Assembly (NCBI GenBank): GCA_020832805.1
Contig: JAFIED010000257.1
Span: 1 to 64,000 of the forward strand
Origin: Pararhodobacter sp.
Lineage (GTDB): Bacteria > Pseudomonadota > Alphaproteobacteria > Rhodobacterales > Rhodobacteraceae
Length of the DNA stretch: 64,000 nucleotides
Direction: 5' to 3'
A program made the translations under genes and the position numbers. Below are positions 38,868 through 60,770 of the stretch, piece after piece. The notes beneath the pieces were generated by a model, which did not search any database, was not told where the DNA came from, and saw only the letters and a list, made by a program, of their open reading frames with translations. How positions within the stretch are numbered: the first letter of the stretch is position 1; every line of letters starts with the position of its first letter.

Positions 38868-38903
38868 GGCCCGGCGCATCACCCCATGCACTGACATGAC
38901 AAT

Positions 38904-38934
38904 GCCGGGGCAAGGCACAATGCCCTGCCCCGGC
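38904..38934. other. Strong intercistronic hairpin after the binding-protein gene
   Basis: GCCGGGGCA and TGCCCCGGC form a perfect 9-bp outer stem with an inner GGC-acaat-GCC stem. It lies 37 nt after the binding-protein stop and 92 nt before the ATPase gene. Such elements commonly stabilise the receptor mRNA and partly stop transcription into the rest of an ABC operon. Confidence 0.55.
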
Positions 38935-39026
38935 GCCCAGGGCCCTGCTTCAGGCGCTGAAAACAGCCCCGCCGGGCGTGCCTTTCATCCACCCACCAGA
39001 CAGATACCGAACGGAGCGCCAGAGAC

Positions 39027-39749: not shown

Positions 39750-39859
39750 TGACAAGGCCGCTTTACGTTTTCGCCATCGCAGACATGCCGGGCATGCCCC
39801 GTGCAAAGGCCGCCGGCGGCGGTGCTGGCGCGGCCTGGTTGACACGGGGCCGGGCATGA
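39749..39859 (+). CDS. Candidate 36-residue ORF filling the livG-livF gap
   Basis: The ATG at 39749 overlaps the livG stop (TGATG) and the TGA at 39857 overlaps the livF start (ATGA), so this frame exactly fills the only non-coding gap. The predicted peptide starts MTRPLYVFAIADMPG and is rich in Gly/Ala/Arg. I recognise no family. It may be a real microprotein or simply a coupling device for livF translation. Confidence 0.35.
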   Translation: MTRPLYVFAIADMPGMPRAKAAGGGAGAAWLTRGRA

Positions 39860-40554: not shown

Positions 40555-41480
40555 TGGATGCCTCATTGATCGTCTACGCCCTGAACCTCAGCGCTATCTA
40601 TGCGCTGATGGCCATCGGGATTTCGCTGCTCTGGTCCTCTATCGGCATGCTGAACATGGCCCATGGCGCCACCTTTGCGGTCTCGGGCTATGGCGCGTTG
40701 GTCATTGGCGGGGCGGTGCTGCCCACGGTGGACGCCTTGCTGCAGGGATCGATGCTGCTGAGCTATGCGCGCTTTGTCGTGCTGCTGGCTGCCGGGGCCG
40801 GGGTGGGGGCGCTTTGTGGCGGCGTCATCTATCTGCTGGCCTTCCTGCCCATTCATGACAAGGCCAATTTCGCGGTTCGCGGGTTGATCGTGACCCTGGC
40901 CATCAATCTGGCCACGGTGCAGGGGTTGTTGTGGTGGTTCGGCCCGCGGCAACAGGCCCTGCCCCAGATATTCGGTTTCGGGCGGCTGGAGGTGCTGGGC
41001 ATTCCCTTGCGCTATGATCAGGCCGCCACGATAGGCGCCACGGCCGTGCTGCTGGTGGCGGTGCTGGCCTGGCTGAAACTCAGCCGCAAGGGCCTGGAAA
41101 TACGCGCCATGATGCAAAACCCCGAGGGCGCCGCGCTGTCCGGCATCTCGGTGCGGCGCGCGGCGATGCCTGTCATGGCAATTACCGGCGCAATGGCCGG
41201 TGCTGCGGCCGTGTTGCTGTCGCAAAGCGTGTTCGTCAGCCCCACTGCGGGCGCCATGCCCCTGATCAAGGGCATGATCATCGCGCTGCTGGGCGGGCTT
41301 GGTTCGGTGCCCGGCGCCGCCATCGCCGCGCTGCTGATCGGTGTGCTGGAGGCCGCGACGGGCGCCATACCGTTCCTGGGTCAGCGCATGGTGCTGCTGG
41401 TGCAGTTCGGCTTCATCATTCTGGTGCTGATCATCCGCCCGCGCGGGATCGGCGGATTGCTTGACGAGACGCGGAAATGA
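40554..41480 (+). CDS. livH: Branched-chain-type ABC transporter permease (LivH-like)
   Basis: A 308-residue membrane protein with about eight spans. Hallmarks: LNLSAIYALMAIGISLLWSSIGMLNMAHGATFAVSGYGA, the cytoplasmic RKGLEIRAMMQNPEGAALSGISVRRAAMPVMAITGAMAGAAAVL and MIIALLGGLGSVPGAAIAALLIGVLEA. It is coupled to livF and to livM through start-stop overlaps. Confidence 0.93.
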   Translation: MDASLIVYALNLSAIYALMAIGISLLWSSIGMLNMAHGATFAVSGYGALVIGGAVLPTVDALLQGSMLLSYARFVVLLAAGAGVGALCGGVIYLLAFLPIHDKANFAVRGLIVTLAINLATVQGLLWWFGPRQQALPQIFGFGRLEVLGIPLRYDQAATIGATAVLLVAVLAWLKLSRKGLEIRAMMQNPEGAALSGISVRRAAMPVMAITGAMAGAAAVLLSQSVFVSPTAGAMPLIKGMIIALLGGLGSVPGAAIAALLIGVLEAATGAIPFLGQRMVLLVQFGFIILVLIIRPRGIGGLLDETRK

Positions 41481-43006: not shown

Positions 43007-43022
43007 AACGAAGGGCTGAATC

Positions 43023-46480: not shown

Positions 46481-47920
46481 TCAGCCCTGCCGGGACATGC
46501 CCCAGTCAAACGGCCGGTCAATGCCCGCCATCTTGACACCGGTAAAGGCCGAAGCCTCGAAACTCAGCGCGCGCAGGTCCTCTGGCTCCAGGTTGTGCAC
46601 CGACGACTTGCCGCAGGCCTTGGCCAGCGCTGTCACTTCCATGGTCATGGCCGTCAGGAACCGGGCAACGCGTTCGGCCCCGGCCGCAACATTCATCCGC
46701 GGCTCCAGGTCCGGGCTCTGGGTGGCAATGCCTACCGGACATCTGCCGGTGTGACAGTGATGGCAGGCGCCGGGGCTGGTGCCAAGCTTGCGGTAATCCT
46801 CTTCGTAGCGGGGCGAATTGCAGCCAAGCGCCATCATCGCACCATTGCCGATCATCACGGCATCGGCCCCCAGGGCCAGCGCCTTGGCGACATCCGTGCC
46901 GGTGCGAATGCCTCCCGCCACCACCAGCGAAACCTTGCCGGACATGCCGCATTCGTCCAGCGCCTCGCGCGCGGCACGGATCGCGGTCAACGTGGGAATG
47001 CCGGTGTGGTTCAACAGCATTTCGGGCGAGGCCCCGGTGCCGCCCTCTGCCCCGTCGACAACCACCACATCGGCCCCGGCCTTGGCCGCCACCGCCACAT
47101 CATAGCGCGGCCGCGTGGCCCCCATCTTGATGAAGATCGGCACCTTGTAATCGGTCGCGATGCGCAACTCCTCGATCTTGACGGCCAGATCGTCTGCGCC
47201 CAGCCAGTCGGGGTGGCGGATGGTCGAGCGTTGATCGACCCCTTCAGGCAGCGTGCGCATCTTCGACACCCGCGGGCTGACCTTCATGCCCAGCAGCAGC
47301 CCGCCGGTGCCGGGCTTGGCGCCCTGCCCCACCACCAGTTCCAGCCCGTCGGCCCGGCGCAGGTGATCAAGATCAAGCCCGTATCGCGCCGGTGACATCT
47401 GATAGACCAGCGTTCTTGACGCCGCGCGCTCTTCCTCCAGCATGCCGCCTTCGCCCGTGCAGGTCATCGTGCCGACCTTGGATGCACCATGCCCCAACGC
47501 CTCCTTGGCGCTGGCGGATAGCGCACCGAACGACATCGAGGCAATGTAGATCGGAATATCCAGCACGATGGGGTTTTCCACCAGTCCCCGGCCGCCGCCC
47601 AGAACCGTGCGGGTGGTGCAGCTTTCGCGGTACCCCTCCAGCGGCAGGCGGGTCAGCGTGGCGGGTACGAAAGTCAGGTCGTCAAAGGTGGGCAGGCGCT
47701 GGTTGAAACTGTTGTACCCGCGCACCTGATACCGGCCCAACTGGGCCAGGGCATGCGCCTCGGAAATCGATTCAGGCGTCCAGCGCGCCGAACCGCCCTG
47801 GTCATAGGATGCCGGCACGCCGGCCGGCCGGCCCTCGATGGCCCCGTCGCCGAACTGCACCAGGTCCTCTGCCGCATCGTCAAAGGGAAAACGATAGGGG
47901 GTGTTCAGATCATCAGCCAT
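46481..47920 (-). CDS. glxD: Glutamate-synthase-like FMN/Fe-S subunit (GlxD/MgsC type)
   Basis: A 479-residue stand-alone GOGAT central/FMN domain. Key parts: IYIASMSFGALSASAKEALGHGASKVGTMTCTGEGGM, MGATRPRYDVAVAAKAGADVVVVDGAEGGTGASPEMLLNHTGIPTL, VVAGGIRTGTDVAKALALGADAVMIGNGAMMALGC and CHHCHTGRCPVGIATQ, whose cysteines would hold an iron-sulfur cluster. In methylotrophs the same three-part set (MgsABC) makes N-methylglutamate. ATG 47920 overlaps the glxC-type gene by 16 nt. It completes the GlxB-C-D unit driven from the operator at 49596. Confidence 0.9.
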   Translation of the reverse strand: MADDLNTPYRFPFDDAAEDLVQFGDGAIEGRPAGVPASYDQGGSARWTPESISEAHALAQLGRYQVRGYNSFNQRLPTFDDLTFVPATLTRLPLEGYRESCTTRTVLGGGRGLVENPIVLDIPIYIASMSFGALSASAKEALGHGASKVGTMTCTGEGGMLEEERAASRTLVYQMSPARYGLDLDHLRRADGLELVVGQGAKPGTGGLLLGMKVSPRVSKMRTLPEGVDQRSTIRHPDWLGADDLAVKIEELRIATDYKVPIFIKMGATRPRYDVAVAAKAGADVVVVDGAEGGTGASPEMLLNHTGIPTLTAIRAAREALDECGMSGKVSLVVAGGIRTGTDVAKALALGADAVMIGNGAMMALGCNSPRYEEDYRKLGTSPGACHHCHTGRCPVGIATQSPDLEPRMNVAAGAERVARFLTAMTMEVTALAKACGKSSVHNLEPEDLRALSFEASAFTGVKMAGIDRPFDWGMSRQG

Positions 47921-48621
47921 GCTTTTGCATCCCTGCTCTGGAAATACCACAGCCGCTGCCCGGCCACGATTCGCCGCCATTCGCGCGAGCGGTCGGCAAG
48001 ACCCAGCGGGTCAAGGATCGCCTCGACCTCGGCCACCTGTTCGGCGGTGGGTTCGGTGATCACCGCATCGACGCCCAGATCATCGACATCGCCGCAGACC
48101 CAGACCTCGCCCTGCCACAGCGCATCGGCACAACTGGGCCCGGCGCCGCCAAGCGCGATGATCTTGCCGCCATGCGCCATGAAGCCCGACTGATAGCCAA
48201 GCCTGCCTTCGACAACGATGGTGCCGCCCTTCATGGCGACCCCGGCACGCGGCCCGCAGTCGCCGCGCACGTGGATCAGCCCACCCAGCATGGCCGCGCC
48301 CACCGACATGCCGGCATAACCACCGATCGTGATATGACCCGCCGACATCGCCTCGCCGCAGCCCCAGCCGGCATTGCGCTGGATGGTAATCCGCGCCCCG
48401 GTATTCAGCCCGCCGCAGTAGTACCCAACCGAGCCTTCGGCATGCAGCGTGCATCCCGGCGGCAGCCCCACGCCCAGATTGTGCCGGGACAGCGTGTTGC
48501 GCAGCACGACATGCCCCCCGGCCCTGGCCGCCTGCTGGATGTCTGCATGCACATCGCGGATGGGTCGGTCGCCCACCTCGATGATTGTTTCGACCACCGT
48601 GTCAGACAGCGCCTGTGTCAT
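47905..48621 (-). CDS. glxC: GXGXG-motif subunit (GlxC/MgsB type)
   Basis: A 238-residue protein made of the GOGAT C-terminal right-handed beta-helix: LHAEGSVGYYCGGLNTGARITIQRNAGWGCGEAMSAGHITIGGYAGMSVGAAMLGGLIHVRGDCGPRAGVAMKGGTIVVEG. It contains the repeated G-x-G-x-x-G pattern. In glutamate and N-methylglutamate synthases this part is structural and helps couple the glutaminase to the FMN site. ATG 48621 overlaps the glxB-type stop (ATGA). Confidence 0.9.
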   Translation of the reverse strand: MTQALSDTVVETIIEVGDRPIRDVHADIQQAARAGGHVVLRNTLSRHNLGVGLPPGCTLHAEGSVGYYCGGLNTGARITIQRNAGWGCGEAMSAGHITIGGYAGMSVGAAMLGGLIHVRGDCGPRAGVAMKGGTIVVEGRLGYQSGFMAHGGKIIALGGAGPSCADALWQGEVWVCGDVDDLGVDAVITEPTAEQVAEVEAILDPLGLADRSREWRRIVAGQRLWYFQSRDAKAWLMI

Positions 48622-49565
48622 GCTGCTACCCTCCGGTTGCCGACCGTCCAGATGCCGTGCAGGCTGGGACCGTCGTGATTGATCACGTCGACAGCATCGT
48701 CGCGATATACCCGCCTGACCGCCTGCTCCTCGGTTCCGGCGGCAATGGCGCCGTTCTGGTCGATCAACACCAATGGCTTCATGGCGAAGCGGTCCTTGGC
48801 AAAGCCGATCGCGCCCGGGGTGGCAATCATGTAGGTGAACACACCGTCGATTTCCCTGATGGAGAGAGTCAGCGCCTCTTCCATGCTGAGGCCCTGTTTC
48901 ATGCGATCCGAAACCCACACCGCAATCAGCTCGCTGTCATTCCAGGTCAGAAAGCGATAGCCCTTTCGCTCCAGCTTTTCGCGCCAGGTGTAGTAATCGG
49001 TGATCTGGCCGTTATGGACGATCGCCACATCGGGAAAGGGGCGCGCCCAGAAGGGGTGGCTGGCATTGGGGCGCACATCGCTTTCGGTGGCCAGGCGGGC
49101 ATGACCCAGCCCGTGGGTGCCATTCATCTGGCGCACGCCGTGCTTGTCGGCTACCGCATCGGCGCCACCGACATCCTTGATGATCTCCAGCGAGCGACCA
49201 ACCGACTGGACCTCGAAGCGATCGGTCATCGCATCGGCAGCTTGCACCCAGGCGGGCAGGTCATCCGGGTCGGTGATCACCAGCCGGGCCAGGTAGTGGC
49301 GGGTGGTACCGCTGTCCCAGCTGGGTTCTTCGGCGAAATCAGCACCGTGATCACGCAGGATGGCGCGGAAATCCGCCAGATCACGCTCAAGCCGCGCGCG
49401 GTCAAAACCCATGGCACGAACGCGGTAACCGCTCTCACGCGGGGTGCCGTAGACGGCAAAACCGGTCGAGTCGGCGCCGCGATGTTCCTGCGCAGCCATC
49501 AACGCCACCAGATCGCGGCCAACCGGCCCTGGCGCCCCCAGTATGCGCCCGGCGATTCCACACAT
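48618..49565 (-). CDS. glxB: Class II glutamine amidotransferase (GlxB/MgsA type)
   Basis: A 315-residue N-terminal-nucleophile amidotransferase. The start MCGIAGRILG places the catalytic Cys at residue 2; HRGADSTGFAVYG, GLGHARLATESDVRPNASHPF and VIVHNGQI-type AIVHNGQITDYY follow as in GOGAT/PurF glutaminase domains. AGGAGG lies upstream of ATG 49565. It would release ammonia from glutamine (or a gamma-glutamylamide) for GlxC/GlxD. First gene of the minus-strand unit; the CTGTATACAG operator lies about 31 bp upstream. Confidence 0.92.
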   Translation of the reverse strand: MCGIAGRILGAPGPVGRDLVALMAAQEHRGADSTGFAVYGTPRESGYRVRAMGFDRARLERDLADFRAILRDHGADFAEEPSWDSGTTRHYLARLVITDPDDLPAWVQAADAMTDRFEVQSVGRSLEIIKDVGGADAVADKHGVRQMNGTHGLGHARLATESDVRPNASHPFWARPFPDVAIVHNGQITDYYTWREKLERKGYRFLTWNDSELIAVWVSDRMKQGLSMEEALTLSIREIDGVFTYMIATPGAIGFAKDRFAMKPLVLIDQNGAIAAGTEEQAVRRVYRDDAVDVINHDGPSLHGIWTVGNRRVAA

Positions 49566-49591
49566 GACAGGCCTCCTGTTCAATCTCTATG

Positions 49592-49609
49592 TATTCTGTA
49601 TACAGTATT
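49592..49609. promoter_or_regulatory. GntR-type operator, glxB/gntR divergent promoter
   Basis: The core CTGTATACAG (49596-49605) is a perfect palindrome with imperfect flanks (TATT..TATT). It lies between glxB (minus, start 49565) and the gntR gene (plus, start 49698). The same core occurs at 57316-57325. The TGTATACA pattern fits GntR/FCD operators. Confidence 0.65.
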
Positions 49610-49697
49610 CATCATTTGGCAACCCCAATTCGGTCTTTGTCTCTGCTTCGGCGAACCGATATAGAGAGTGACCGCCCAGAAAGCAGGACACGGCGCC

Positions 49698-50372
49698 ATG
49701 CCATTCAGATCCTTGTCCAGACCACGCGAGCGTTTGGCAGATCAGATCTACGACCAGATCATGAACGCGATCCGCAGTGGCGAGATCTCGACGACAGATC
49801 GCATCGTCCAGGAAAAGCTGGCCGAACAGTTCCAGATCAGCCGAACGCCCGTGCGCGAGGCTCTTTTCCGGATGGAGCAGGAGGGGATTCTGGTGGTCGA
49901 AGGGCGGGGCGGGTTCCGCATTCGCGCGCTTGGTCCAAAGGAAATAGCCGAACTCTATGGCGCCCGCTGCGCCATAGAGGGGCATGCCGCCCGGCTGCTG
50001 GCCGAACGCAACGACCCCGCGCGGAACGATCAGTTGCGCGATGTGATCAACCGGGCCGAAGACCTGAAAAACGACACCGTCGAGGCGTATTTTCAGGCCA
50101 ACATGACAGTGCATCGCGCCTTTGTCGAAGCAACTGATAACCGCTTCCTGCTTGAATTCTTTGATAATCTCTGGAACCGCGGTGCGTCGTTCACGCTTTT
50201 CGCCACAATCGAGTCGGTCGATCTGGCCAAATCGCTGGGCGACCATCTGGGGCTTGTCGATGCCATTGCCAGCGGCGACGCCGCGCGCGCCTGCGAGCGC
50301 ATGATTGCCCATATCAACGACGGCTACGCTTTGCAGATTGAGGCCGGACGGCTGCGCGGAACGATCCCCTGA
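49698..50372 (+). CDS. GntR-family regulator, FCD type
   Basis: A 224-residue regulator: ADQIYDQIMNAIRSGEISTTDRIVQEKLAEQFQISRTPVREALFRMEQEGILVV (winged helix), then an FCD domain (EAYFQANMTVHRAFVEATDNRFLLEFFDNLW; later GDHLGLVDAIASGDA). ATG 49698 has an AGGA box about 10 nt before; GTG 49668 is an alternative. It is divergent from glxBCD and convergent with the microcompartment operon. The matching palindromes at both ends of the locus make it the likely master regulator. Confidence 0.92.
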   Translation: MPFRSLSRPRERLADQIYDQIMNAIRSGEISTTDRIVQEKLAEQFQISRTPVREALFRMEQEGILVVEGRGGFRIRALGPKEIAELYGARCAIEGHAARLLAERNDPARNDQLRDVINRAEDLKNDTVEAYFQANMTVHRAFVEATDNRFLLEFFDNLWNRGASFTLFATIESVDLAKSLGDHLGLVDAIASGDAARACERMIAHINDGYALQIEAGRLRGTIP

Positions 50373-50442: not shown

Positions 50443-50856
50443 TCACGGCAAATCGATCTTGCCAGACTCGTCGTGGATCACGGCATCGACAAGAATTTCA
50501 ACGGTCATTCCCGGCGTCGCAAGCCCGGCCTCGACCGCTGACATGACGGGTTCGATACCGGCAAAGACCTCGCCATGGGCACGCACAAAGCCGGCGGCAT
50601 CGGTCTTCAGGCAGCGCAGAAAGGCAGTGGTGCGCACGACATGATGCATCTCTGCCCCAACCTCGTTCAGTGCAAGCCGGATACGGCGCAGCGCGTACTG
50701 TGTCTGGGCATAGGCATCGCCGGGCGCATGCAACTGCCCGCTGGGTTCGACGGCCGTTGTGCCGGCCACCCAGACAAACGGGCCCACGCGCACCGCGCGG
50801 GCATAGGATGCCGCTTTCTCGAACCGGCCGCCGCCGTGATGCCGCCGCTTGACCAT
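50443..50856 (-). CDS. RidA-family protein of the microcompartment operon
   Basis: A 137-residue Rid-family protein: RFEKAASYARAVRVGPFVWVAGTTAVEPSG, AYAQTQYALRRIRLALNEVGAEMHHVVRTTAFL, and the end ATPGMTVEILVDAVI. The Arg that precedes VEI in active RidA (kept in the 9034-9423 paralog) is Thr here, so plain imine deaminase activity is doubtful. The basic start (VKRRHHGGGRF) is unusual. Its ATG overlaps the stop of the malate-dehydrogenase-like gene. Last gene of the operon. Confidence 0.87.
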   Translation of the reverse strand: MVKRRHHGGGRFEKAASYARAVRVGPFVWVAGTTAVEPSGQLHAPGDAYAQTQYALRRIRLALNEVGAEMHHVVRTTAFLRCLKTDAAGFVRAHGEVFAGIEPVMSAVEAGLATPGMTVEILVDAVIHDESGKIDLP

Positions 50857-52043
50857 CAGCCTGCCAACCGTTTGCGGATTGCCTGCGCGGCGGCCTGCAG
50901 CGCGTCACGCTCGGCCGGGGTCAGCGCGATCTCGGCCACCTCGACCAGCCCGCCTGTACCCAGATGGCAGGGCACGCCCAGCACCACATCGGTAATGCCG
51001 AACTCGCCCTGCAGCAGGACAGACACCGGCACCGGGCCCGCGCGGGCACCGCGCAGATGGTCCATCACCTCAACCGAGGCATGGGCGGGCGCAATCACGG
51101 CCGAACCCGTGCGCTTCAGCGCCACCACTTGCCCGCCCCCGGTCACGGCATCGCGCACACAGGCGGCAATCTGTTCCGGCGACAGGAAGAAAGCCAGCGG
51201 CCTGCCCTTTATGGTCGATGCCGAAGGAATGGGCGCCATCTCCTCGCCATGACTGCCCAGGGTCAGAGCCTCGACATCGCCGGGATCGACATTGGCCGCC
51301 CGGGCCAGGGCGTGGCGAAAGCGGCTGCTGTCCAGCGTACCGGCCATGCCCAGCACCTGGCCGCGCGGAAAGCCGGTGGCGCGCAACATCTCGAAGGTCA
51401 TTTCGTCCAGCGGGTTGGTCACCACAATGACCACCGCCTGCGGCGCGTGCGCCGCTATCGCTGCGGCGGTGGCGTGGACCACACGCCGGTTGACCTCGAT
51501 CAGATCGGCGCGCGTCATGCCCGGTGCGCGCGGGCGCCCGGCAGTAACCAGCACCACATCGGCCCCGTCGACCAGCGCCAGCGAGGCCCCCCCCCGCACA
51601 CGGCAGCGGCTGCGCGTGATGCCAGAGGCATGCGCGATATCCAGTGCCATCGCCTCGGCCAAGCCGGGGGTAATGTCGATCAGCACGATTTCCTCGGCCA
51701 TGTCGGCCATGGCACACAGATGCGCGGCGTGACTACCCACCCCACCGGCACCGACAAAGGCTATCCGCCCGAAGCGGCGCGGTTGCCGCGCCCGGCGCGC
51801 CGACGGCGCGACCCAGCGCGGCGAGCGCCGCCACAGTGCCCGCCGCAAGGCAGTGGCGCCATCGGTGACAATCGGTTCAGGCCGCGGCAAGGGACCATCG
51901 CGCAGCGCGATGCCCAGCCGTTCGGCCTGATCGCGGGCTTCGGCCGTGACGATATCGCCGGGCAGCACCTCCAGCTGGGTACGCTGCCGGCGCCGGGCTT
52001 CGACAACATGTTCGGCCCCGATGACACGGCGCGGCGGTTTCAT
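50856..52043 (-). CDS. Lactate/malate-dehydrogenase-like protein with N-terminal extension
   Basis: A 395-residue protein. Residues ~92-395 are an LDH/MDH: RIAFVGAGGVGSHAAHLCAMADMAEEIVLIDI (NAD fold), AGRPRAPGMTRADLIEVN (Arg at the specificity loop, malate-type), VTNPLDEMTFEMLRATGFPRGQVLGMAGTLDSSRFRHALA and the catalytic His in TLGSHGEEMAPIPSAS. Residues 1-90 are extra: a basic start, then LEVLPGDIVTAEARDQAERLGIALRDG, then an Arg-rich linker. The VTxxARDxAxxxGI pattern recalls segments in other microcompartment proteins, so it may be for encapsulation. A cofactor-recycling role (NADH to NAD+) is inferred. It overlaps the shell gene by ATGA. Confidence 0.88.
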   Translation of the reverse strand: MKPPRRVIGAEHVVEARRRQRTQLEVLPGDIVTAEARDQAERLGIALRDGPLPRPEPIVTDGATALRRALWRRSPRWVAPSARRARQPRRFGRIAFVGAGGVGSHAAHLCAMADMAEEIVLIDITPGLAEAMALDIAHASGITRSRCRVRGGASLALVDGADVVLVTAGRPRAPGMTRADLIEVNRRVVHATAAAIAAHAPQAVVIVVTNPLDEMTFEMLRATGFPRGQVLGMAGTLDSSRFRHALARAANVDPGDVEALTLGSHGEEMAPIPSASTIKGRPLAFFLSPEQIAACVRDAVTGGGQVVALKRTGSAVIAPAHASVEVMDHLRGARAGPVPVSVLLQGEFGITDVVLGVPCHLGTGGLVEVAEIALTPAERDALQAAAQAIRKRLAG

Positions 52044-52663
52044 GCCGGATGCGCCCCCTCGATCGCCTCGATGGCAGCGGTTGCCGCCTGGATGGCCGTT
52101 GCGACGTCATCTTCGGCACCGCAGATGAACAGGCGGCCAAACCGGCCGACCGCGCGCACCTCGACGATGTCGATGCGGGCCGCCTTTTCGGCCTCGTTGG
52201 CGGCATGCGCGATATAGGCGGCAGGCGCGCATTCAACGATGCCCAGCGTCTGCCCCGGCACCACCAGCGCGCCCTTGCGCCATTTGTTCAGCAACTGGGC
52301 CTGATACGGCTCGACTGACGTGATGATCTGGGTTGATGCCACCTCGGGGCGCAGGCGATCATGCAACCCCTTGCCAAGGGCGGCCAGAATGGCCTCGCGC
52401 GCCGCAGAAACCTCGGCGTTCGACGGGCTGCGCAGGATGAAGAAACCGAACTCGCGTTCGACAAGCTGTGTCGTCGCCTCGACCGAACTGGCCTTCAGTG
52501 CCCGGTCGATCAGCGTGAAAACCCCGTTGCCCGGCGCAAACTCACCGATCAGGACGGTGTCGCCGGCCAATGGCACCGAGCCCTGCACCGTGGCACCGTT
52601 GAAAGCCGCAAATTTCGGCTGCAGGTTGTCGATCTGGACAAGGGCGCGAATGATGGTCGACAT
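52040..52663 (-). CDS. Microcompartment shell protein, tandem BMC domain (BMC-T)
   Basis: A 207-residue shell protein with two BMC repeats. The second is clear (TLGIVECAPAAYIAHAANEAEKAARIDIVEVRAVGRFGRLFICGAEDDVATAIQAATAAIEA). The first (GDTVLIGEFAPGNGVFTLIDRALKASSVEATTQLVEREFGFFIL) is more divergent. BMC-T proteins form pseudohexameric trimers that can carry a larger central pore. ATG 52663 is two bases from the aldehyde-dehydrogenase stop. It is one of only three shell genes seen in the locus. Confidence 0.9.
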   Translation of the reverse strand: MSTIIRALVQIDNLQPKFAAFNGATVQGSVPLAGDTVLIGEFAPGNGVFTLIDRALKASSVEATTQLVEREFGFFILRSPSNAEVSAAREAILAALGKGLHDRLRPEVASTQIITSVEPYQAQLLNKWRKGALVVPGQTLGIVECAPAAYIAHAANEAEKAARIDIVEVRAVGRFGRLFICGAEDDVATAIQAATAAIEAIEGAHPA

Positions 52664-52665
52664 GG

Positions 52666-54045
52666 TCAGCCTCCGTAGACTTCGTAGATGTCGCGCCAAG
52701 GCCGGTTTTCCCAGGCAACGCGCTTGATGTTGATAAGATGCAGTGCGGTCACGTTGTCTGATGTGATCGAGCCGGACCAGGTGCCGGTGCCCAGCATGAA
52801 CGACGGCTCAAGGTCGGTGGAAAAACCCATGCCCCCCATGATGCCCGGCGTATTGACCAGAACACGCCCTACCGGCAGGCGGGAATATTCGGCCACCACG
52901 GCGGGGTCATCGGCATGGATCACCGCCGAATGACCCCAGCCCTCGAACCGGGCAATGCGTTCGGCCAGCGTGATGCCGGCGGCACTGTCAGGCGCTTCGT
53001 AGAAGGCCAGAACCGGGTTCAGCTTTTCGGCCGACAGCGGGCGCTGCCAGCCGATTTCGGTTTCCTCGCTGATCAGGCAACGAATGCGCGGCGGCAAGGC
53101 AAATCCGGCCTTTTCGGCCAGTGCCTGCGGGCTTTGGCCAACATTGGCCGGGTCCATGGCCCTGCGGCCCTGAAAGATGACCTGTGCCACGCGGTCAGCC
53201 TCGGCCCGGGTCATGAAATAGGCGCCGGCCAGCTTCAATTCGTGGCGCAACGCACGGGCGATGGCAGCATCGGTGACGACCGCCTGTTCGGAAACGCAGG
53301 CCGTGCCGTAGTCAAAGCATTTCGAGGTGATGATCTGCTCGGCCACCTCGGCCAGCTGGCTGGTCTTGGAGGCATGCACATAGCACGGCACATTGCCCGC
53401 CCCGACAGCCAGCGTGGGCTTGCCTGAACTGTAGGCCGCGCGCACCATTGCCGGGCCACCCGTAGCCATCACCACCGAGGTGCGGCGGTGGCGCATCAGT
53501 TCGGCCGTGCCCTCGATCGTCACGTCTTCCAGACACTGGATAAGGCCTTTCGGCGCGCCCATCCCTTCGGCCACTTCGGCCATGACACGCACGGTTTCCA
53601 TCCCGCAGCGCAGCCCGCGCGGATGGGGCGCGCAGACGATCGCATTGCCGGCCTTCACCGCGCTCAGAACCTTGTAGATGATGGTCGAGGTGGGATTTGT
53701 CACCGGTATCAGCGCCGCCACCACGCCCATCGGCTCGCCAATGGCGGCGATCTTCGCGCGCTCGTCGCGCCACAGTACGCCAAGCGTGGTAACGTCGCGC
53801 AGCCAATCGGCCACCGACAGGGCGTTGAACAGGTTTTTCACCCGCTTGTCGGCGATATTGCCATAGCCTGTTTCCTCGACTGCCAGCCGGCCCAACGGCT
53901 CGGCCTCGGGCTCGATGGCGCGCGCCTTCGCATCGACCATGGCATGGATATGGGCGGGGTCGGTGCCCAGAAAACGCCGATAGGCGGCAAAGGCCTTTTC
54001 GGCGCTGGCCCTGGCGGCGGCGATCGACTTCAGATCCTTATCCAT
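52666..54045 (-). CDS. CoA-acylating aldehyde dehydrogenase (microcompartment type)
   Basis: A 459-residue NAD-dependent aldehyde dehydrogenase of the EutE/PduP/SauS kind, which turns an aldehyde plus CoA into acyl-CoA. Seen: DLKSIAAARASAEKAFAAYRRF at the N-terminus, PVTNPTSTIIYKVLSAVKAGNAIVCAPHPR, MATGGPAMVRAAYSSGKPTLAVGAGNVP, the catalytic Cys in CFDYGTACVSEQAVV and SAEKLNPVLAFY. This is the core enzyme of metabolosome microcompartments. No phosphotransacylase (PduL/EutD) is seen in the window, so the acyl-CoA probably leaves the shell or is used by another route. Confidence 0.92.
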   Translation of the reverse strand: MDKDLKSIAAARASAEKAFAAYRRFLGTDPAHIHAMVDAKARAIEPEAEPLGRLAVEETGYGNIADKRVKNLFNALSVADWLRDVTTLGVLWRDERAKIAAIGEPMGVVAALIPVTNPTSTIIYKVLSAVKAGNAIVCAPHPRGLRCGMETVRVMAEVAEGMGAPKGLIQCLEDVTIEGTAELMRHRRTSVVMATGGPAMVRAAYSSGKPTLAVGAGNVPCYVHASKTSQLAEVAEQIITSKCFDYGTACVSEQAVVTDAAIARALRHELKLAGAYFMTRAEADRVAQVIFQGRRAMDPANVGQSPQALAEKAGFALPPRIRCLISEETEIGWQRPLSAEKLNPVLAFYEAPDSAAGITLAERIARFEGWGHSAVIHADDPAVVAEYSRLPVGRVLVNTPGIMGGMGFSTDLEPSFMLGTGTWSGSITSDNVTALHLINIKRVAWENRPWRDIYEVYGG

Positions 54046-55240
54046 GCACGCCCCCGTTCAGGATTGCCGCGAACTGCCGCCGCGCATCGCTGACATCGCC
54101 CGCCGAAATGCCGATCGTTTCCAGCCGCCGACCGGCGCCGCCAAGATCGCGTTTCAGCAAGACCTGCGCCAACTCGATCATGGCCTGCGTTGCCGGCACT
54201 GCCCTGCCAGAACGGGCAGCCGCCGAAACCAGTGGAACAAGCGAACCGACGACACCGGCGCGGACAGCCTCGCGCGATGCGGCGGCGTCGGGCACGGGGC
54301 GGCTGCCTGTGCCGCGTGCCGCCCCGGCGACACGGTCGATGGCGCCGCCGACATCGGGCAGGTCGCGTACGCCGAAATCAGCCGCCACCGCGCAGCGTTC
54401 ATCCCAAAGCCGGGCGATCAATGCCTCGTGCGCGGGGCCGATCAGGGCGCGGAACGTGGCATTGCCGGCAAGTGGCACACCACCCTCTGGCACCAGAGGT
54501 GCACCATCGGCGGCAGCCGGCCCACCGATCATCAATGCCGGCAGTTCGACCGCGGCGCTGGCATCGTCAAAGCCGGAATGCACGCAGGAAAGCACCGCGC
54601 GCCCGTTCGGCATCAAGCCGGACACCGCCGCCAGCGCCGCGTCCTGCCCCGGCGCCAGGCTGGCCAGAGGGACAGGCGGGCAGGCAGACAATACCAGCGC
54701 CCCCCCGTCAGCCGTTATCCAGTACGGCGCGCCGCCAGCCTCGACCAGAGCCAGATCGGCCTGCGCACCCCCGCATTGCAGCAGCCATGCCACCTCGACC
54801 GCGCCAAGCGAGCGGGCATCGGGCAACAGGACCACCTGCCCGGCAGCCAGCTGATCGGCAAGCACCTGGGCATAGGTGCGCTGTTTGTGCAGCGGGCCGC
54901 TGAGAACCACCAGCTCGGCGCCGTCCAGCGCCTCGTCCAGCGCTGCGGTGGTCTGAATGGAAGGACCAGCCGGTTGATCGACATGAAACGATCCCACCGG
55001 CCCCTCGCCCCGCAGCGTGATCGACCCGGCTGCCCTGATCGCCGCCAGTTCGGCCCCGTAGGCCGAGAACAGCCGCACCTCTGCCCCGCCGGCCAGGGCC
55101 AGCGCGGCATACATCTGCCCGTCAGGCGCTGCACCCAGCACCGCCACCCGCCCTGCCGGCTGGCCCTTGTGCCGTGCTGGCGCCTGCGCCCGGTTTCGGG
55201 TCAGTGCCTGGGCGAAATCCTCAAAGCCTGAGCTGGTCAT
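54038..55240 (-). CDS. Opine/octopine-dehydrogenase-like protein in the microcompartment operon
   Basis: A 400-residue protein. Residues ~1-27 (GFEDFAQALTRNRAQAP) could form an amphipathic helix like an encapsulation peptide. Residues ~28-180 resemble the N-terminal domain of opine dehydrogenases: GRVAVLGAAPDGQMYAALALAGGAEVRLFSAYGAELAAIRAAGSITLRGEGPVG, then AALDEALDGAELVVLSGPLHKQRTYAQVLADQLAAGQVVLLPDARSLGAVEVAWLL. The second Gly of the usual GxGxxG is Ala. The C-terminal domain is helical and fits the ODH layout, but the expected catalytic His near AAVELPALMIGG is not obvious. It could split an N-alkyl amino acid to aldehyde and amino acid, which is inference. Confidence 0.65.
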   Translation of the reverse strand: MTSSGFEDFAQALTRNRAQAPARHKGQPAGRVAVLGAAPDGQMYAALALAGGAEVRLFSAYGAELAAIRAAGSITLRGEGPVGSFHVDQPAGPSIQTTAALDEALDGAELVVLSGPLHKQRTYAQVLADQLAAGQVVLLPDARSLGAVEVAWLLQCGGAQADLALVEAGGAPYWITADGGALVLSACPPVPLASLAPGQDAALAAVSGLMPNGRAVLSCVHSGFDDASAAVELPALMIGGPAAADGAPLVPEGGVPLAGNATFRALIGPAHEALIARLWDERCAVAADFGVRDLPDVGGAIDRVAGAARGTGSRPVPDAAASREAVRAGVVGSLVPLVSAAARSGRAVPATQAMIELAQVLLKRDLGGAGRRLETIGISAGDVSDARRQFAAILNGGVHG

Positions 55241-55316: not shown

Positions 55317-55628
<312 letters not shown>

Positions 55629-55676
55629 CGTGTTGTTCCTTCCTTGCGACATGTTGAGATGAGTGTGCGATACGGG

Positions 55677-55943
55677 TCAGAGCGAAATGCGGTCGACAAC
55701 GGCAATCAGCGCGGCGTCGACCGGCAGGCCGGCGGCGCCCCGCACAATGCGTGCAGCCGACCCCGAGACCATCAGGCACAGGTCCCCGCGCCCTGCCCCC
55801 ACGGCATCGACGGCAACACAGGCTGTCTCGGCGGTTGGCGCGCCATCGGGGGCAACAGGCTGGACCACCATGAACTTCTGCCCCGAAAGACCTGCCTCTT
55901 TCAGCGTGGCGGTGGCCGTGCCGATGACGCGAACGATTTTCAT
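55677..55943 (-). CDS. Microcompartment vertex protein, EutN/CcmL type (BMC-P)
   Basis: An 88-residue pentamer-forming vertex protein: MKIVRVIGTATATLKEAGLSGQKFMVVQPV, then ACVAVDAVGAGRGDLCLMVSGSAARIVRG and a hydrophobic end. The AVDAVGAG..GDLVL..GSSAR pattern is the EutN/CcmL signature. ATG 55943 overlaps the ligase stop (TGATG). It caps the twelve vertices of a closed shell, so a complete minimal shell set (H, T, P) exists here. Confidence 0.95.
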   Translation of the reverse strand: MKIVRVIGTATATLKEAGLSGQKFMVVQPVAPDGAPTAETACVAVDAVGAGRGDLCLMVSGSAARIVRGAAGLPVDAALIAVVDRISL

Positions 55944-57244
55944 CACATGGTTCCCAGATAGCGGTCACGCTCGACCGGGGTGATCTGCGTTTCGACAAAG
56001 GCGATTTCGCGTTCCGCCTGCTGGATCAGGATTTCCAGACGATGTTCGCCAAGTGCGCGGGTCATGAGTTCGGAGTCCCGCGCCGCAGCGACGGCCGCGG
56101 CCAGGGTCAGGGGCAAGGGCTCTGACCCCTCGCCGGCGTCACCATAGGCGTTGCCCGAGCATGGCGCACCGGGCTCCAGCCCCTGCTCGATCCCGTCAAG
56201 CCCGGCGGCAATGTCGCAGGCGAGCAGAAAATAGGGGTTGCAATCGGCCGATGCGTCACGCCTCTCTACACGCACGGCGCTATCCTGCCCCTCGATCACG
56301 CGCAGACCGACGGTGCGGTTGTCATAGCCCCAGGTGTTGTTGACCGGGCAAAAGGTATAGGGCTGGCGCCGGCGATAGGCATTCGGCGTGGTTGACCCCG
56401 CCAGCGCCGTTTCGGCCATGTGGCGGCGCAACCCGGCGGTAAAGGCCTTGCCGGTTGCATTCAACCTGCCATCGGCGGCGAACTGGTTGCGCCCGTTTTG
56501 CCACAGCGAATAATGCGTATGAAACCCGCTGCCCGCCTGATCGATAAAGGGTTTGGCCATGAACGTGGCCAGATACCCGTGCTTGTGCGCCAATTGCTTG
56601 ACCAGCGAGCGGAACATGACCACCCGGTCGGCCGCCAGCAGGGCGTCGTCATAGCGGATGTTCACCTCTACCTGCCCCGGCGCATATTCCGGGTTCGACT
56701 GCTCGATGGGAATGCCCATCTCGTTCAGGTGCTGGCGGATCGGCCCCAGCACATGCTCCATCTCGGCAGCACGCGCCAGGCTGTAGACCTGAATGCCGTT
56801 ATCCCTGGGCATCAGGGTTTCGGGATCCAGCAGGTAGAATTCCAGCTCGGTACCGCATTGCACCTGATAGCCCATCGCGCTTGCGCGTTCGAGCTGATCA
56901 ACAAGGGCGCCGCGGGGGTCCAGCGGGACCGGGCCATGATCCATGCCCTCGGCACGGGCCAGGCAAAAGGCAACCCCCGGCTCCCACGGCTGGGCCACGG
57001 GCGCGGTCAGGGGGAACATGTGCATGTCAGGATAGCCGTTGTCGAAATTGACATAGGGCGTGTCCCAGACATCGCATGTCATGTCTATGGCCAGCAAGGC
57101 AATCGACAGGGCGTTGCCGCGCTCGCATGTGGCCGCCCAATGGCTGGCAGGAATGCGCTTTCCGCGAAGGATGCCGTTCAGGTCACCCATGCCCATCGCC
57201 ACGGTATGGGTGCCCGGCGGCAAGGCGAAGTCTTCGTGCTGCAT
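55943..57244 (-). CDS. Glutamine-synthetase-family ligase (gamma-glutamylamide synthetase-like)
   Basis: A 433-residue GS-fold enzyme. GTELEFYLLD, EQSNPEYAPGQVEVNIRYDDALLAADRVVMFR, ATFMAKPFIDQAGSGFHTHYSLW, TPNAYRRRQPYTFCPVNNTWGYDNR and RRDASADCNPYFLLACDIAAGL carry the ATP/metal/glutamate-binding elements. It is shorter than GlnA and resembles the PuuA/GmaS class, which join glutamate to an amine. It heads the microcompartment operon and shares an operator core with glxBCD; GmaS plus MgsABC is the known start of N-methylglutamate pathways. The particular amine is unknown. ATG 57244 was chosen for GGGACAGGG upstream. Confidence 0.88.
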   Translation of the reverse strand: MQHEDFALPPGTHTVAMGMGDLNGILRGKRIPASHWAATCERGNALSIALLAIDMTCDVWDTPYVNFDNGYPDMHMFPLTAPVAQPWEPGVAFCLARAEGMDHGPVPLDPRGALVDQLERASAMGYQVQCGTELEFYLLDPETLMPRDNGIQVYSLARAAEMEHVLGPIRQHLNEMGIPIEQSNPEYAPGQVEVNIRYDDALLAADRVVMFRSLVKQLAHKHGYLATFMAKPFIDQAGSGFHTHYSLWQNGRNQFAADGRLNATGKAFTAGLRRHMAETALAGSTTPNAYRRRQPYTFCPVNNTWGYDNRTVGLRVIEGQDSAVRVERRDASADCNPYFLLACDIAAGLDGIEQGLEPGAPCSGNAYGDAGEGSEPLPLTLAAAVAAARDSELMTRALGEHRLEILIQQAEREIAFVETQITPVERDRYLGTM

Positions 57245-57311: not shown

Positions 57312-57329
57312 TATACTGTATACAGTATA
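57312..57329. promoter_or_regulatory. GntR-type operator, perfect 18-bp palindrome
   Basis: TATACTGTATACAGTATA is perfectly self-complementary and lies between the ligase/microcompartment operon (minus, start 57244) and the DAO gene (plus, start 57357). Its core CTGTATACAG is identical to the site at 49596-49605. It is AT-rich within GC-rich DNA and would overlap promoter elements for both directions. Confidence 0.72.
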
Positions 57330-57356: not shown

Positions 57357-58496
57357 ATGGCCCGTTCCGAAATCGTCGTTGCAGGGGGCGGGATTGCCGG
57401 GTTGATGACTGCCATCTCACTGGCCCGGCGCGGGCATGGGGTCAGCCTGGTCGATCGCTGGGAACCGGGTCACGCGCGCGCCTCGTCCTCGGATTACAAC
57501 CGGGTCATTCGTGCCATCCACGGGCGTGATCAGTTCTATACGCGTTGGGCACGAGAGGCCCGGCTGCGCTGGCTGGAGCTGGAACAGGAAACCGGCGCCA
57601 GCCTTTACCACGAATGCGGCGCCCTGATCCTGGCAACCCAGGGGCACTGCCAATGGGAAGATGACACCGCCCATACCTTTGATGCGCTTGGCGTGCCCTA
57701 TCACCGCTACAGCCCTGACGACATTCGCGCATTTTTCCCCCAGTTCGACCCGCAGGGCATCAGCTATGCGCTGCATGAGCCGGAAGCCGGCATGATCATG
57801 GCGCATCGCGCGCTGATCACGGGCGTTGCCTTGCTGCGCAGGCTTGGTGGCAAGATCCTGCGGGGACGGGTGACAACCGATGCCAACGAACGGCCCATGC
57901 TGGACGGCAAGCCGCTGGAGGCCGACCTGATCGTCATTGCCACCGGCCCCTGGATGGCCGAGATGTTCCCCCGGACGGTGAAACCCATCAGCAATGTGGT
58001 GGGCGTCAACGTGCTTTATACATCGACCCCGGATGGATCAGAGGCCTTTGACCACACCCACATGCCCTGCTGGATCGATCATGGCGAGGGCTCGTTCGGG
58101 CTGCCATCGGTCGAAGGGTCAGGGATCAAGGCTGCCGTGGTGATTCCGGATCAGATCGATCTGGACAATGACGAGCGGCTGATCCGGCAGAAAACGCTGG
58201 CGCGCACCCGGCGTTATATCGACAAACGCCTGCCGGGACTGAGCGGGCAACGCGTGGTTGACAGCAAGTTCAATCAGATCGTGCTGACACCTGACACGCA
58301 TTTCATCATCGATTTTCACCCCGAACACCGCAACGTCCTGCTGGCCGGGGGCTGTTCCGGCCATCTTTTCAAGCATGGCCCCGTATTTGGCGAATTCGCT
58401 GCGGGGGTAGGCCTGCGCGATTTCGGCACCCCGGACCGGTTCAGACTGGGACCACGGCGCAAGCTGACTCCGGCCGAAAGCCCCTCGGGGCGCTGA
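57357..58496 (+). CDS. FAD-dependent oxidoreductase, sarcosine-oxidase-like
   Basis: A 379-residue DAO-fold enzyme of the monomeric sarcosine/N-methyltryptophan oxidase group: EIVVAGGGIAGLMTAISLARRGHGVSLVDR, HARASSSDYNRVIRAIHG, a LIVIATGPWMAEMFP segment, and near the C-terminus TPDTHFIIDFHPEHRNVLLAGGCSGHLFKHGPVFGEFAAG. The Cys that binds FAD covalently in MSOX (just before TPD) appears to be absent (FNQIVLTPD). AGGAAAG precedes ATG 57357. Sharing the operator with the microcompartment operon suggests it oxidises an N-alkyl amino acid made by the Glx route, releasing an aldehyde. Confidence 0.9.
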   Translation: MARSEIVVAGGGIAGLMTAISLARRGHGVSLVDRWEPGHARASSSDYNRVIRAIHGRDQFYTRWAREARLRWLELEQETGASLYHECGALILATQGHCQWEDDTAHTFDALGVPYHRYSPDDIRAFFPQFDPQGISYALHEPEAGMIMAHRALITGVALLRRLGGKILRGRVTTDANERPMLDGKPLEADLIVIATGPWMAEMFPRTVKPISNVVGVNVLYTSTPDGSEAFDHTHMPCWIDHGEGSFGLPSVEGSGIKAAVVIPDQIDLDNDERLIRQKTLARTRRYIDKRLPGLSGQRVVDSKFNQIVLTPDTHFIIDFHPEHRNVLLAGGCSGHLFKHGPVFGEFAAGVGLRDFGTPDRFRLGPRRKLTPAESPSGR

Positions 58497-58724
58497 ACCG
58501 GCGCGCGCACGGCAAGGCAACCATTCTTGCCTTTGCCCGATCCAGCACGCCTTCCCGTGCCGGCGTTGCAGGCGTGGTCCTTGATGCATCGTCCCGCACG
58601 GTGCACAGTGGCACCGCCGTCCCGGCCTGCCTGACCGACCAGGGGAATAGCCACCCGCCGCGACGGCGGTGCCCGGCTGGCCGGCCCACACCCGCCATGC
58701 CTGATGCTTGCCAAAGGATCCGTC

Positions 58725-60770
58725 ATGCCAGATGACCCCCTGTTGCAGCCCTACCAGCTGAAGCACCTGACCCTGCGCAACCGCATCATGACCACGGCAC
58801 ACGAACCGGCCTATCCAGAGGACGGCATGCCAAAGGCGCGCTATGTGTCCTATCACGCCGAACGCGCCCGGGCCGGGGTTGCGCTGGCAATGACAGCGGG
58901 CTCGGCCACGGTATCGCGCGACAGTCCACCCGCGTTCAACAACATCCTGGCATGGAACGACGCGGTGGTGCCCCATATCCGGCAACTGACCGATGCCTGC
59001 CATGATCACGGCTGCGCGGTAATGATCCAGCTGACCCATCTGGGCCGTCGCACCGGCTGGAACAAGGGCGACTGGTTGCCCTCGATTTCTTCCAGCAAGC
59101 ACCGCGAACCGGCGCATCGGGCATTCCCGAAGCTGGCAGAAGATTGGGATATCGAACGCATCATCGCCGATTTCGCCGATGCCACAGAGCGGATGCAGGC
59201 CGGTGGCATGGATGGGGTGGAATTGCAGGTCTATGGCCATCTGCTGGATCAGTTCTGGTCGCCGCTGACCAATGATCTGGACGGGCCATATGGGGGCCAA
59301 AGCCTTGAGACACGCATGCAGCTTCTGATGGACGTGTTGCGCGGAATTCGCGCGCGCGTGGGTGACGGGTTCATCGTGGGCGTGCGCTATACGGCGGATG
59401 AAGCCGCAGCCGGCGGGATCGATGCGGCCGAGGGGCTGGAGATTTCCAGACGGCTGGCCGATTGCGGCATGGTTGATTTCCTCAATGTCATACGCGGACG
59501 CATCCATACCGATCCGGCCATGACCGATGTGATCCCGGTTCAGGGCATGAAAAGCGCCCCGCATCTGGATTTCGCGGGTGCCGTGCGGGCGGCCACCGGC
59601 ATGCCAACCTTCCACGCGGCGCGTATCCCCGATGTGGCAACCGCGCGCCATGCCGTGGCGGCGGGGTTGCTGGACATGGTCGGCATGACCCGCGCGCATA
59701 TGGCCGATCCCCATATCGTGCAGAAGATCGTTGAAGGCCGCGAAGCTGACATCCGCCCCTGTGTCGGCGCCACCTATTGCCTGGACCGGATCTATCAGGC
59801 GGGCGAAGCGCTGTGCATCCACAACGCCGCCACCGGGCGCGAGCTGACCCTGCCGCATGTGGTCACGCCGGCCGAAACGCGCAGGAAAATCGTGATCGTG
59901 GGCGCTGGCCCCGCCGGGCTGGAAGCGGCGCGCGTGGCCGCCGAGCGCGGCCATGAAGTGGTAGTGTTCGAGGCCCAGCCCGACCCCGGCGGCCAGATCC
60001 GCCTGACCGCGCAGAACCCGCGTCGGCGCGAGATGATCGGCATCATCGACTGGCGCATGGCCCAATGCGCCGCGCGCGATGTGGTGTTCCATTTCAACAC
60101 CTATGCCGAGGCCAAGGACGTGACCGCCCTGTCGCCGGATGTGGTGATCGTGGCCACCGGCGGGTTGCCCAATACGCAACTGTTCGAAAACAGCGCAGAC
60201 AATCCGCATGTGATCAGCGCCTGGGACATCATTGCAGGCGATGTGAAACCCGCGGGCCATGTGCTGGTCTATGACGAGGCGGGCGATCATCCGGCGCTGA
60301 TGGCGGCAGAAGTCATCGCCAATGCAGGCGCCTCGGTCGAGGTGATGACCCCCGACCGCAGCCTTGCCCCCGAGATCATGGGCATGAATCTGGTGCCCTA
60401 CATGCGCGCGTTGCAGCATCGGGACGTCACCTTTACCGTTGCCCGGCGCCTGCTGGATGTCAGACGCGACGGCAATCGCCTGCGGGCCTCCATAGGCACC
60501 GATTACAGCTATTTCATGCGCGATCAGCACTATGATCAGGTGGTGGTCAATTATGGAACCATGCCACTGGATGATCTGTATTTCGCCCTGAAACCCCTTT
60601 CATCGAACGGCGGCGCGACAGACCACGATGCGCTGATCGCCAGCAGGCCGCAGGCCCTGACCCGCAACCCGGATGGCCGCTTTCAGCTGTTCCGGATCGG
60701 CGACGCTGTCAGCGCACGCAACACCCATGCTGCCATCCATGATGCGCTGCGGCTGATGAAGGATATCTGA
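58725..60770 (+). CDS. TMADH/dienoyl-CoA-reductase-like flavoprotein (putative N-demethylase)
   Basis: A 681-residue two-domain enzyme. Residues 1-~330 form the FMN barrel (LRNRIMTTAHEPAYPEDGMPKARYVSYHAERARAGVALAMTAG; GMDGVELQVYGHLLDQFWSPLTNDLDGPYGG). The cysteine stretch CVGATYCLDRIYQAGEALC keeps three Cys where TMADH (CxxCxxC..C) has four. Residues ~390-681 hold an FAD/NAD fold (RRKIVIVGAGPAGLEAARVAAERGHEVVVFEAQPDPGGQIRL). Relatives remove N-methyl groups (trimethylamine, N-methylproline) or reduce dienoyl-CoAs. AAAGGATC precedes the ATG. It is 228 bp after the DAO gene on the same strand; that gap shows no clear feature. Confidence 0.85.
   Translation: MPDDPLLQPYQLKHLTLRNRIMTTAHEPAYPEDGMPKARYVSYHAERARAGVALAMTAGSATVSRDSPPAFNNILAWNDAVVPHIRQLTDACHDHGCAVMIQLTHLGRRTGWNKGDWLPSISSSKHREPAHRAFPKLAEDWDIERIIADFADATERMQAGGMDGVELQVYGHLLDQFWSPLTNDLDGPYGGQSLETRMQLLMDVLRGIRARVGDGFIVGVRYTADEAAAGGIDAAEGLEISRRLADCGMVDFLNVIRGRIHTDPAMTDVIPVQGMKSAPHLDFAGAVRAATGMPTFHAARIPDVATARHAVAAGLLDMVGMTRAHMADPHIVQKIVEGREADIRPCVGATYCLDRIYQAGEALCIHNAATGRELTLPHVVTPAETRRKIVIVGAGPAGLEAARVAAERGHEVVVFEAQPDPGGQIRLTAQNPRRREMIGIIDWRMAQCAARDVVFHFNTYAEAKDVTALSPDVVIVATGGLPNTQLFENSADNPHVISAWDIIAGDVKPAGHVLVYDEAGDHPALMAAEVIANAGASVEVMTPDRSLAPEIMGMNLVPYMRALQHRDVTFTVARRLLDVRRDGNRLRASIGTDYSYFMRDQHYDQVVVNYGTMPLDDLYFALKPLSSNGGATDHDALIASRPQALTRNPDGRFQLFRIGDAVSARNTHAAIHDALRLMKDI

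Follow-up and report, generated by a model that had tools for sequence, protein, structure and literature searches.

The N-methylglutamate pathway loads an amine onto glutamate by means of GmaS and the N-methylglutamate synthase (NMGS), after which the N-methylglutamate (NMG) dehydrogenase acts (PMC7948447). Among bacterial microcompartments (BMCs), NAD+ recycling has been predicted for the malate/lactate dehydrogenase (MDH/LDH)-type proteins of the PVM loci (PMC4207490), and many cryptic metabolosome loci hold an aldehyde dehydrogenase while no enzyme for making its aldehyde is recognized in them (PMC8217296). Opine dehydrogenases conserve a His-Asp dyad whatever the organism, and the swap A111R/N198G turns one from Phe to Asp, the pair described for acidic-amino-acid preference being Arg and Gly; metagenomic enzymes (mODHs) with Arg at position 111 (CENDH numbering) convert Asp and Glu, mostly prefer NADPH, and have Ser in place of Asp34 (PMC10787698). 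Descriptions and uses of these enzymes generally concern the reductive reaction, and R292V is present in a CENDH engineered to take ketones that have no carboxylate (PMC6033044). Among the papers covered by our literature search, none was found that links opine or octopine dehydrogenases with microcompartments.

Gene content and conservation of the locus

The window, by which we mean the whole 64,000-nucleotide stretch of Pararhodobacter sp. DNA analyzed here, contains a locus that is probably an amine metabolosome, digesting small amines (Table 1). The opine-like protein encoded within it is best started at the M at 55240, because the alignment of its orthologs begins there and because L007, from a Natronohydrobacter MAG, has no earlier start. 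A previous reading of this DNA from sequence only (hereafter the sequence-only reading) had given the ORF its correct limits and left out its strand, which is minus. The family alignment has 13 members (the window protein, L007, L008 and L030-L039); the protein of L007 is 81% identical to that of the window, and the others are 43-63% identical to it. Eight components are found in 13/13 loci: the glutamine-synthetase (GS)-like ligase, BMC-H, BMC-T, the opine-like protein, the aldehyde dehydrogenase (AldDH), the MDH-family protein with its EutQ-like N-terminus, RidA, and the divergent flavoprotein of the DAO family (hereafter DAO), the last by tblastn without composition adjustment, as the default pass lacked L030, L036 and L038. 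BMC-P was found in all loci except L037 in a first search and in all 13 in a second, and the first tblastn pass did not pick up MgsB in several loci. The GS-like ligase has Phe at the Glu-flap position in all six loci read there (the window, L030, L031, L032, L039 and L008).

Table 1. Features of the locus; positions are those of the window.
Feature	Position	Strand	Evidence
N-methylglutamate-synthase-like MgsA/MgsB/MgsC	46481..49583	-	GATase, GXGXG and Glu_synthase domains of L007 orthologs
Palindromic operator CTGTATACAG, GntR/MgsA promoter region	49596..49605	.	motif search
GntR/FCD regulator	49668..50372	+	PF00392 + PF07729
RidA-family imine/enamine hydrolase-like protein	50443..50856	-	PF01042
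Malate/lactate-dehydrogenase-family protein with N-terminal EutQ-like extension	50856..52043	-	domain matches; PVM/MIC1 precedent (PMC4207490)
BMC-T (CcmP-like tandem BMC) shell protein	52040..52699	-	PF00936 in two stretches; NF053796
CoA-acylating aldehyde dehydrogenase (EutE/acetaldehyde-dehydrogenase type)	52666..54045	-	TIGR02518 E=2.2e-145; 5j78 E=1e-123
Opine-dehydrogenase-fold protein, 400 aa	54038..55240	-	homology searches; AldDH ATG overlaps stop (ATGGATAA)
Putative encapsulation peptide (MTSSGFEDFAQA)	55205..55240	-	F6/F9 invariant 13/13; hydrophobic moment
BMC-H shell protein	55317..55652	-	PF00936
BMC-P vertex protein	55677..55946	-	PF03319
Glutamine-synthetase-like amine ligase (gamma-glutamyl-amide synthetase type)	55943..57244	-	PF00120
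Palindromic operator CTGTATACAG, GS/DAO divergent promoter region	57316..57325	.	motif search
DAO-family flavoprotein, monomeric sarcosine oxidase relative, divergently transcribed	57357..58496	+	1zov E=1.2e-30

The opine-like protein and the locus AldDH occur one-to-one, in the same 12 of 397 genomes of the Rhodobacteraceae, a name used here for the family group of our genome sample (NCBI places Natronohydrobacter in the Paracoccaceae). Orthologs of MgsC, the large NMGS subunit, are present in 15/397 genomes, 12 of which are all of the BMC genomes, with the gene in the locus or elsewhere. Relatives of the opine-like protein were detected neither in a plasmid search nor, at E<=1e-20, in the other 384 genomes of the class sample (n=385). 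Purifying selection acts on the opine-like gene (dN/dS 0.12-0.21), though less strongly than on those for AldDH (0.04-0.14) and DAO (0.05-0.09); GS and BMC-T values were disregarded for some pairs as frame artefacts. The opine-like protein has also diverged more quickly than AldDH (0.44 versus 0.24 in mean pairwise distance), and its identity to distant orthologs is below that of the other locus enzymes. No phosphotransacylase or alcohol dehydrogenase was found among the scanned locus proteins, the MDH-family protein, likely the NAD+ recycler by analogy, being present instead; nor was a heterotetrameric NMG dehydrogenase recognized among the locus genes, where DAO takes its place.

A shared operator and the proposed pathway

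The palindrome CTGTATACAG is matched twice in the window, against 0.01 matches expected, and ACTGTATACAGTA, allowing at most one mismatch, occurs only at those two promoter sites in the 3.7-Mb genome. In a second genome (G372, two contigs), CTGTATACAGTA is found at three places only, the promoters of a remote NMGS, of an ABC transporter and of GS/DAO, and the same pattern is seen in G256; the operator is absent from L008 and L069, both of G032. ACTGTATACAGT is a candidate target sequence for the GntR protein. This distribution ties amine loading onto glutamate, the shell, DAO and the transporter into one pathway, even when the genes are distant. Since this 12-bp element, nearly unique in the genome, is shared by the shell operon, the flavoprotein and the NMGS-like genes, a route from amine through N-alkylglutamate and aldehyde to acyl-CoA, as read from the gene content and the named families, is well supported.

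Along this route, the GS-like ligase and the NMGS-like synthase would load a primary amine onto glutamate, giving a gamma-glutamylamide and an N-alkylglutamate; the presence of both enzymes bears out the sequence-only reading in that the locus plausibly makes N-alkylglutamate. The alkyl group would then depart as an aldehyde, to be converted by the acylating AldDH to acyl-CoA, with the MDH-family enzyme returning NADH to NAD+ and RidA perhaps hydrolyzing imines. The transporter, the DMFase neighbors and the acyl-CoA ligases of loci that have no shell gave no firm answer as to the identity of the amine.

Homology of the opine-like protein to opine dehydrogenases

The opine-like protein is homologous to opine dehydrogenases along its whole length, across both domains, as judged by sequence comparison. 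The window protein alone matches CENDH (1bg6) by phmmer over residues 44-393 (E=4e-6), and the family profile matches it end to end (352 profile positions, 345 residues; E=2.7e-22); the match of the profile to octopine dehydrogenase is weak. Comparison by hhalign of the family with five genuine opine dehydrogenases of the Rhodobacteraceae gives E=8e-26. Chance similarity is ruled out by the last two profile values, and the likeness extends beyond the N-terminal half for which it had previously been claimed. Every one of the 13 members matches PF02317 at E<=0.1 (5.4e-7 in the best case), the window protein itself scoring 16.7 bits, below the gathering score of 30. The segment ITLxGxGxxG, listed earlier among the opine-dehydrogenase features, is indeed a conserved segment of the family (LRGxGPVG), but it aligns with a loop of CENDH and not with the dinucleotide fingerprint. 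An AlphaFold2 model built from two sequences (pLDDT 41, pTM 0.44) is too poor to serve as evidence, even though Foldseek ranked 1bg6 first against it (E=0.012), and the evidence for the fold is therefore taken from the profile comparisons.

The N-terminus preceding the homologous region has the features of an encapsulation helix, as had been proposed: F6 and F9 never vary among the 13 members, the mean hydrophobic moment is 0.54 as compared with 0.26 in shuffled sequences (0/2000 as high), and a variable A/P/S-rich linker follows, to about residue 29. We infer that this helix directs the protein to the shell lumen. Inspection by eye of the termini of DAO, GS and AldDH recognized no such helix. 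Two things favor a role of the opine-like protein as a lumen enzyme: in no other cargo was an encapsulation helix recognized, and its gene directly precedes that for AldDH, with overlapping stop and start.

A possibly rebuilt active site

The altered fingerprint noticed earlier in the window protein (GAAPDG) is real and specific to its clade: GxGxxG/A is found in 10/13 members, GxAxxG in the window protein and L007, and GxGxxS in L008. The window clade, in which the second Gly of the fingerprint is missing, also lacks the active-site Trp258 of CENDH, in our own reading the 'key tryptophan' of PMC10787698; the position is Ala in the window protein and Trp in 8/13 members. A nucleotide site is plausible, and the putative nucleotide-contact columns, an approximate choice, are better conserved than the remainder (permutation P=0.018).

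The catalytic residues have been replaced throughout the family. The missing catalytic His of the sequence-only reading is a property of all members: the position of His202 of CENDH is Glu in 12/13 and Asp in 1/13. The position of Asp297 is Gly in 12/13 and Ala in 1/13, and that of Arg292, the keto-acid-side Arg, is E/A/I/S/Q/R/G across the 13 members; the genuine opine dehydrogenases have His, Asp and Arg at these positions in 5/5 cases. To our knowledge, none of the opine dehydrogenases tested is active in the absence of the His-Asp dyad. Other positions are uniform, that of Ala111 being Arg, that of Asn198 Ser or Thr, and that of Asp34 Ser, each in 13/13 members. Because the dyad is described as conserved in all opine dehydrogenases (PMC10787698), we do not class the window family as catalytic opine dehydrogenases. 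Thus, although the homology to CENDH and the family-wide match to PF02317 would suit an ordinary opine dehydrogenase joining an amino acid and a 2-oxo acid, the replacement of His, Asp and the keto-acid Arg in every member, together with the sub-threshold Pfam score of the window protein, makes such an enzyme very improbable.

As a set, the cleft positions known from the literature are no better conserved than the remainder (P=0.72, as opposed to P=0.0003 in the genuine opine dehydrogenases), in a test of 18 positions only, with the alignment of the C-domain uncertain at several of those in the cleft. The segments around the former His (residues 222-234, conservation 0.81) and the former Asp (326-338, 0.84) are above the C-domain average of 0.71, however, as expected of a rebuilt and not a decayed site; 17/183 windows reach 0.81. 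The uniform Arg at position 111 and Ser/Thr at 198 also speak against simple decay: a pair of this kind has been shown by experiment to make opine dehydrogenases prefer Asp/Glu (PMC10787698), which gives the sequence-only reading support independent of its own grounds. The loss of Arg292 would likewise agree with an aldehyde as the carbonyl partner. In such a site, the invariant Arg143 (CENDH 111) and Ser/Thr228 (CENDH 198) would hold an acidic amino acid and Glu/Asp232 would stand in for the catalytic His, with no Arg kept for the carboxylate of a keto acid, and the enzyme would interconvert N-alkylglutamate plus NAD(P)+ and glutamate, aldehyde and NAD(P)H. NAD(P)-linked chemistry on N-alkylglutamate is, on these residues, plausible, and we put it forward tentatively.

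Which protein releases the aldehyde

The DAO-family flavoprotein, overlooked in the sequence-only reading, is a serious competitor for aldehyde release. Aligned with 1zov, it keeps R49, R52, K265 and K348, which we take to be the substrate-carboxylate and O2-site residues of monomeric sarcosine oxidase, and has Asn for C315, presumably the FAD-linking residue. Moreover, among three NMGS loci that have no shell, in L066 and L067 an orthologous NMGS is accompanied by a non-acylating aldehyde dehydrogenase and by an unrelated DAO-family flavoprotein (there are acyl-CoA ligases as well in L066, and a malonyl-CoA-synthase-like ligase lies nearby in L067), and L068 has NMGS, GS and RidA, with no DAO found within 12.9 kb. 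The opine-like protein is absent from all three (0/3), and the finding of a DAO-family flavoprotein in 2/3 of them favors DAO as the aldehyde releaser. With the dyad gone, the cleft set unenriched and DAO in every locus, the earlier assignment of aldehyde release to the opine-like protein is not supported in the form in which it was made.

A rather doubtful alternative is that DAO is an N-alkylglutamate oxidase that frees the aldehyde, and that the opine-like protein, with its encapsulation peptide, catalyzes nothing but carries AldDH into the shell as an adaptor or structural cargo. Besides the conservation of DAO, its presumed active-site residues and the shell-less loci, it draws on the loss of the dyad, on the cleft test and on two features of AldDH: its match to TIGR02518 stops at 449/488, the C-terminal extension of the model being absent, and its start is overlapped by the stop of the opine-like gene, which lies between those for BMC-H and AldDH. 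However, the former catalytic positions hold specific conserved residues (E/D232, D226, S/T228 and R143) and show no drift, and the nucleotide-site columns are enriched for conservation, both of which speak against an adaptor. In addition, as DAO has no recognized encapsulation helix, aldehyde and H2O2 would be made outside the shell unless the flavoprotein is otherwise carried.

Alternatively, DAO may free the aldehyde and the opine-like enzyme work mainly in reverse, using NAD(P)H to rejoin escaped aldehyde and glutamate. This would buffer the aldehyde and recycle the cofactor in the stead of the alcohol dehydrogenase, which is not recognized in the locus; the determinant for an acidic amino acid is present, and the reductive direction is that in which opine dehydrogenases are usually described (PMC6033044). 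Against this, the MDH-family protein would already supply NAD+ recycling, as predicted in the PVM loci, the reaction would form a futile cycle with DAO, and the catalytic residues are changed; we consider it quite improbable.

The opine-like cargo may release or recapture a toxic aldehyde contained by the shell, and the best single reading, held tentatively, is that of a lumen NAD(P)-dependent enzyme with a rebuilt active site, acting on the C-N bond of N-alkylglutamate, for which release, drawn by AldDH, would be favored over recapture. The stronger claim, that the signature enzyme of the compartment is an NAD(P)-dependent dehydrogenase of N-alkylglutamate, built on the opine-dehydrogenase fold and with a Glu replacing the His-Asp dyad, and that with it come a new chemistry and a new alkylamine type of BMC, is rather unlikely. 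The flavoprotein, the cargo with the opine-dehydrogenase fold, the aldehyde dehydrogenase and the activation of amines on glutamate are tied together by one coherent regulon, so that the source of the aldehyde and the enzyme that releases it become a matter for a direct assay of two enzymes. An active opine-like protein would take the chemistry of opine dehydrogenases to aldehydes without the His-Asp dyad, a goal of engineered opine dehydrogenases.

Comparison with known systems

CENDH of Arthrobacter sp. 1C (1bg6, PF02317) shares with the opine-like family two-domain homology throughout, the GxGxxG/A of most orthologs, and the landmarks Glu-Arg (E281/R282), Pro and Gly. In contrast, His202 has become Glu/Asp and Asp297 Gly/Ala, Arg292 is unconserved and Pro203 is lost; moreover, unlike CENDH, the opine-like protein has an N-terminal encapsulation-type extension and is encoded in a shell operon. 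The mODHs resemble it in the Arg at position 111, the small residue at 198 and the replacement of Asp34 by Ser, but they retain the dyad, which the opine-like family lacks, and use pyruvate (PMC10787698). DAO is homologous to monomeric sarcosine oxidase (1zov, 1l9c) and keeps its carboxylate-binding and O2-site residues, but Asn replaces the covalent-FAD Cys315, and hydrophobic residues replace His269, Tyr254 and Tyr317. Like the N-methylglutamate pathway (PMC7948447), the locus has a GS-like ligase and a three-subunit NMGS-like synthase, here under one operator; in place of an NMG dehydrogenase, which was not recognized here, it has a sarcosine-oxidase-like DAO, the opine-like protein, an acylating AldDH and a shell. 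Finally, it shares with the PVM and MIC1 metabolosomes (PMC4207490) an AldDH and a lactate/malate dehydrogenase family protein replacing alcohol dehydrogenase, but it has GS, NMGS, DAO and opine-like genes instead of an aldolase.

A shared operator and shell-less loci

Two palindromic sites in the window share a ACTGTATACAGT core that is almost unique genome-wide, and in related genomes the same operator lies 5' of the N-methylglutamate-synthase-like (NMGS), shell/sarcosine-oxidase-like flavoprotein (DAO) and transporter genes. The GntR/FCD regulator is probably the protein that binds this putative site. Three loci (L066, L067 and L068) are variants of the regulon with orthologous NMGS but no shell: the glutamine-synthetase-like ligase accompanies NMGS in two of the three, two also encode a DAO-family flavoprotein unrelated to the window's DAO together with an aldehyde dehydrogenase of non-acylating type, and the shell genes, the acylating aldehyde dehydrogenase and the opine-like protein are absent from all.

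Features of the window and of a second contig of the same genome
Feature	Position	Strand
Amide/urea-type ABC transporter genes, then N,N-dimethylformamidase-like (DMFase) large subunit (PF20254)	37626-45338	+
Transporter permease	41477-43006	
Palindromic operator	49596-49605; 57316-57325	
MDH-family protein fused to EutQ-like N-terminal extension	50856-52043	-
DAO	57357-58496	+
OYE/trimethylamine-dehydrogenase-like flavoprotein (TIGR03997-like), directly 3' of DAO	58704-60770	+
Genuine opine dehydrogenase	L009:5958-7076 (G000 contig C29)	-

Conserved and accessory genes

The MDH-family/EutQ-like fusion, with Arg at the MDH/LDH specificity position as read by eye, is kept in all 13 loci. The C-terminal tail of DAO, ESPSGR, is identical in these loci (13/13); no TIGR03997-like flavoprotein was recognised 3' of DAO in the other loci examined. 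A class-I glutamine-amidotransferase-like gene adjoins MgsC in six loci (L031-L035 and L039), lying between MgsC and DAO, and occurs beside the remote NMGS genes of L070 and L071; none was seen in the window or L007.

By eye, the C-terminus of the transporter permease is apparently fused to a small-subunit-like domain. The DMFase cluster also adjoins NMGS in another genome (G256, locus L071), and N-alkylformamides may therefore feed into the amine pathway.

Elsewhere in the genome that encodes the opine-like protein, a genuine opine dehydrogenase has its catalytic His and Asp intact; genes for a hydroxyacyl-CoA-dehydrogenase-like protein and a TRAP-type solute-binding protein adjoin it.
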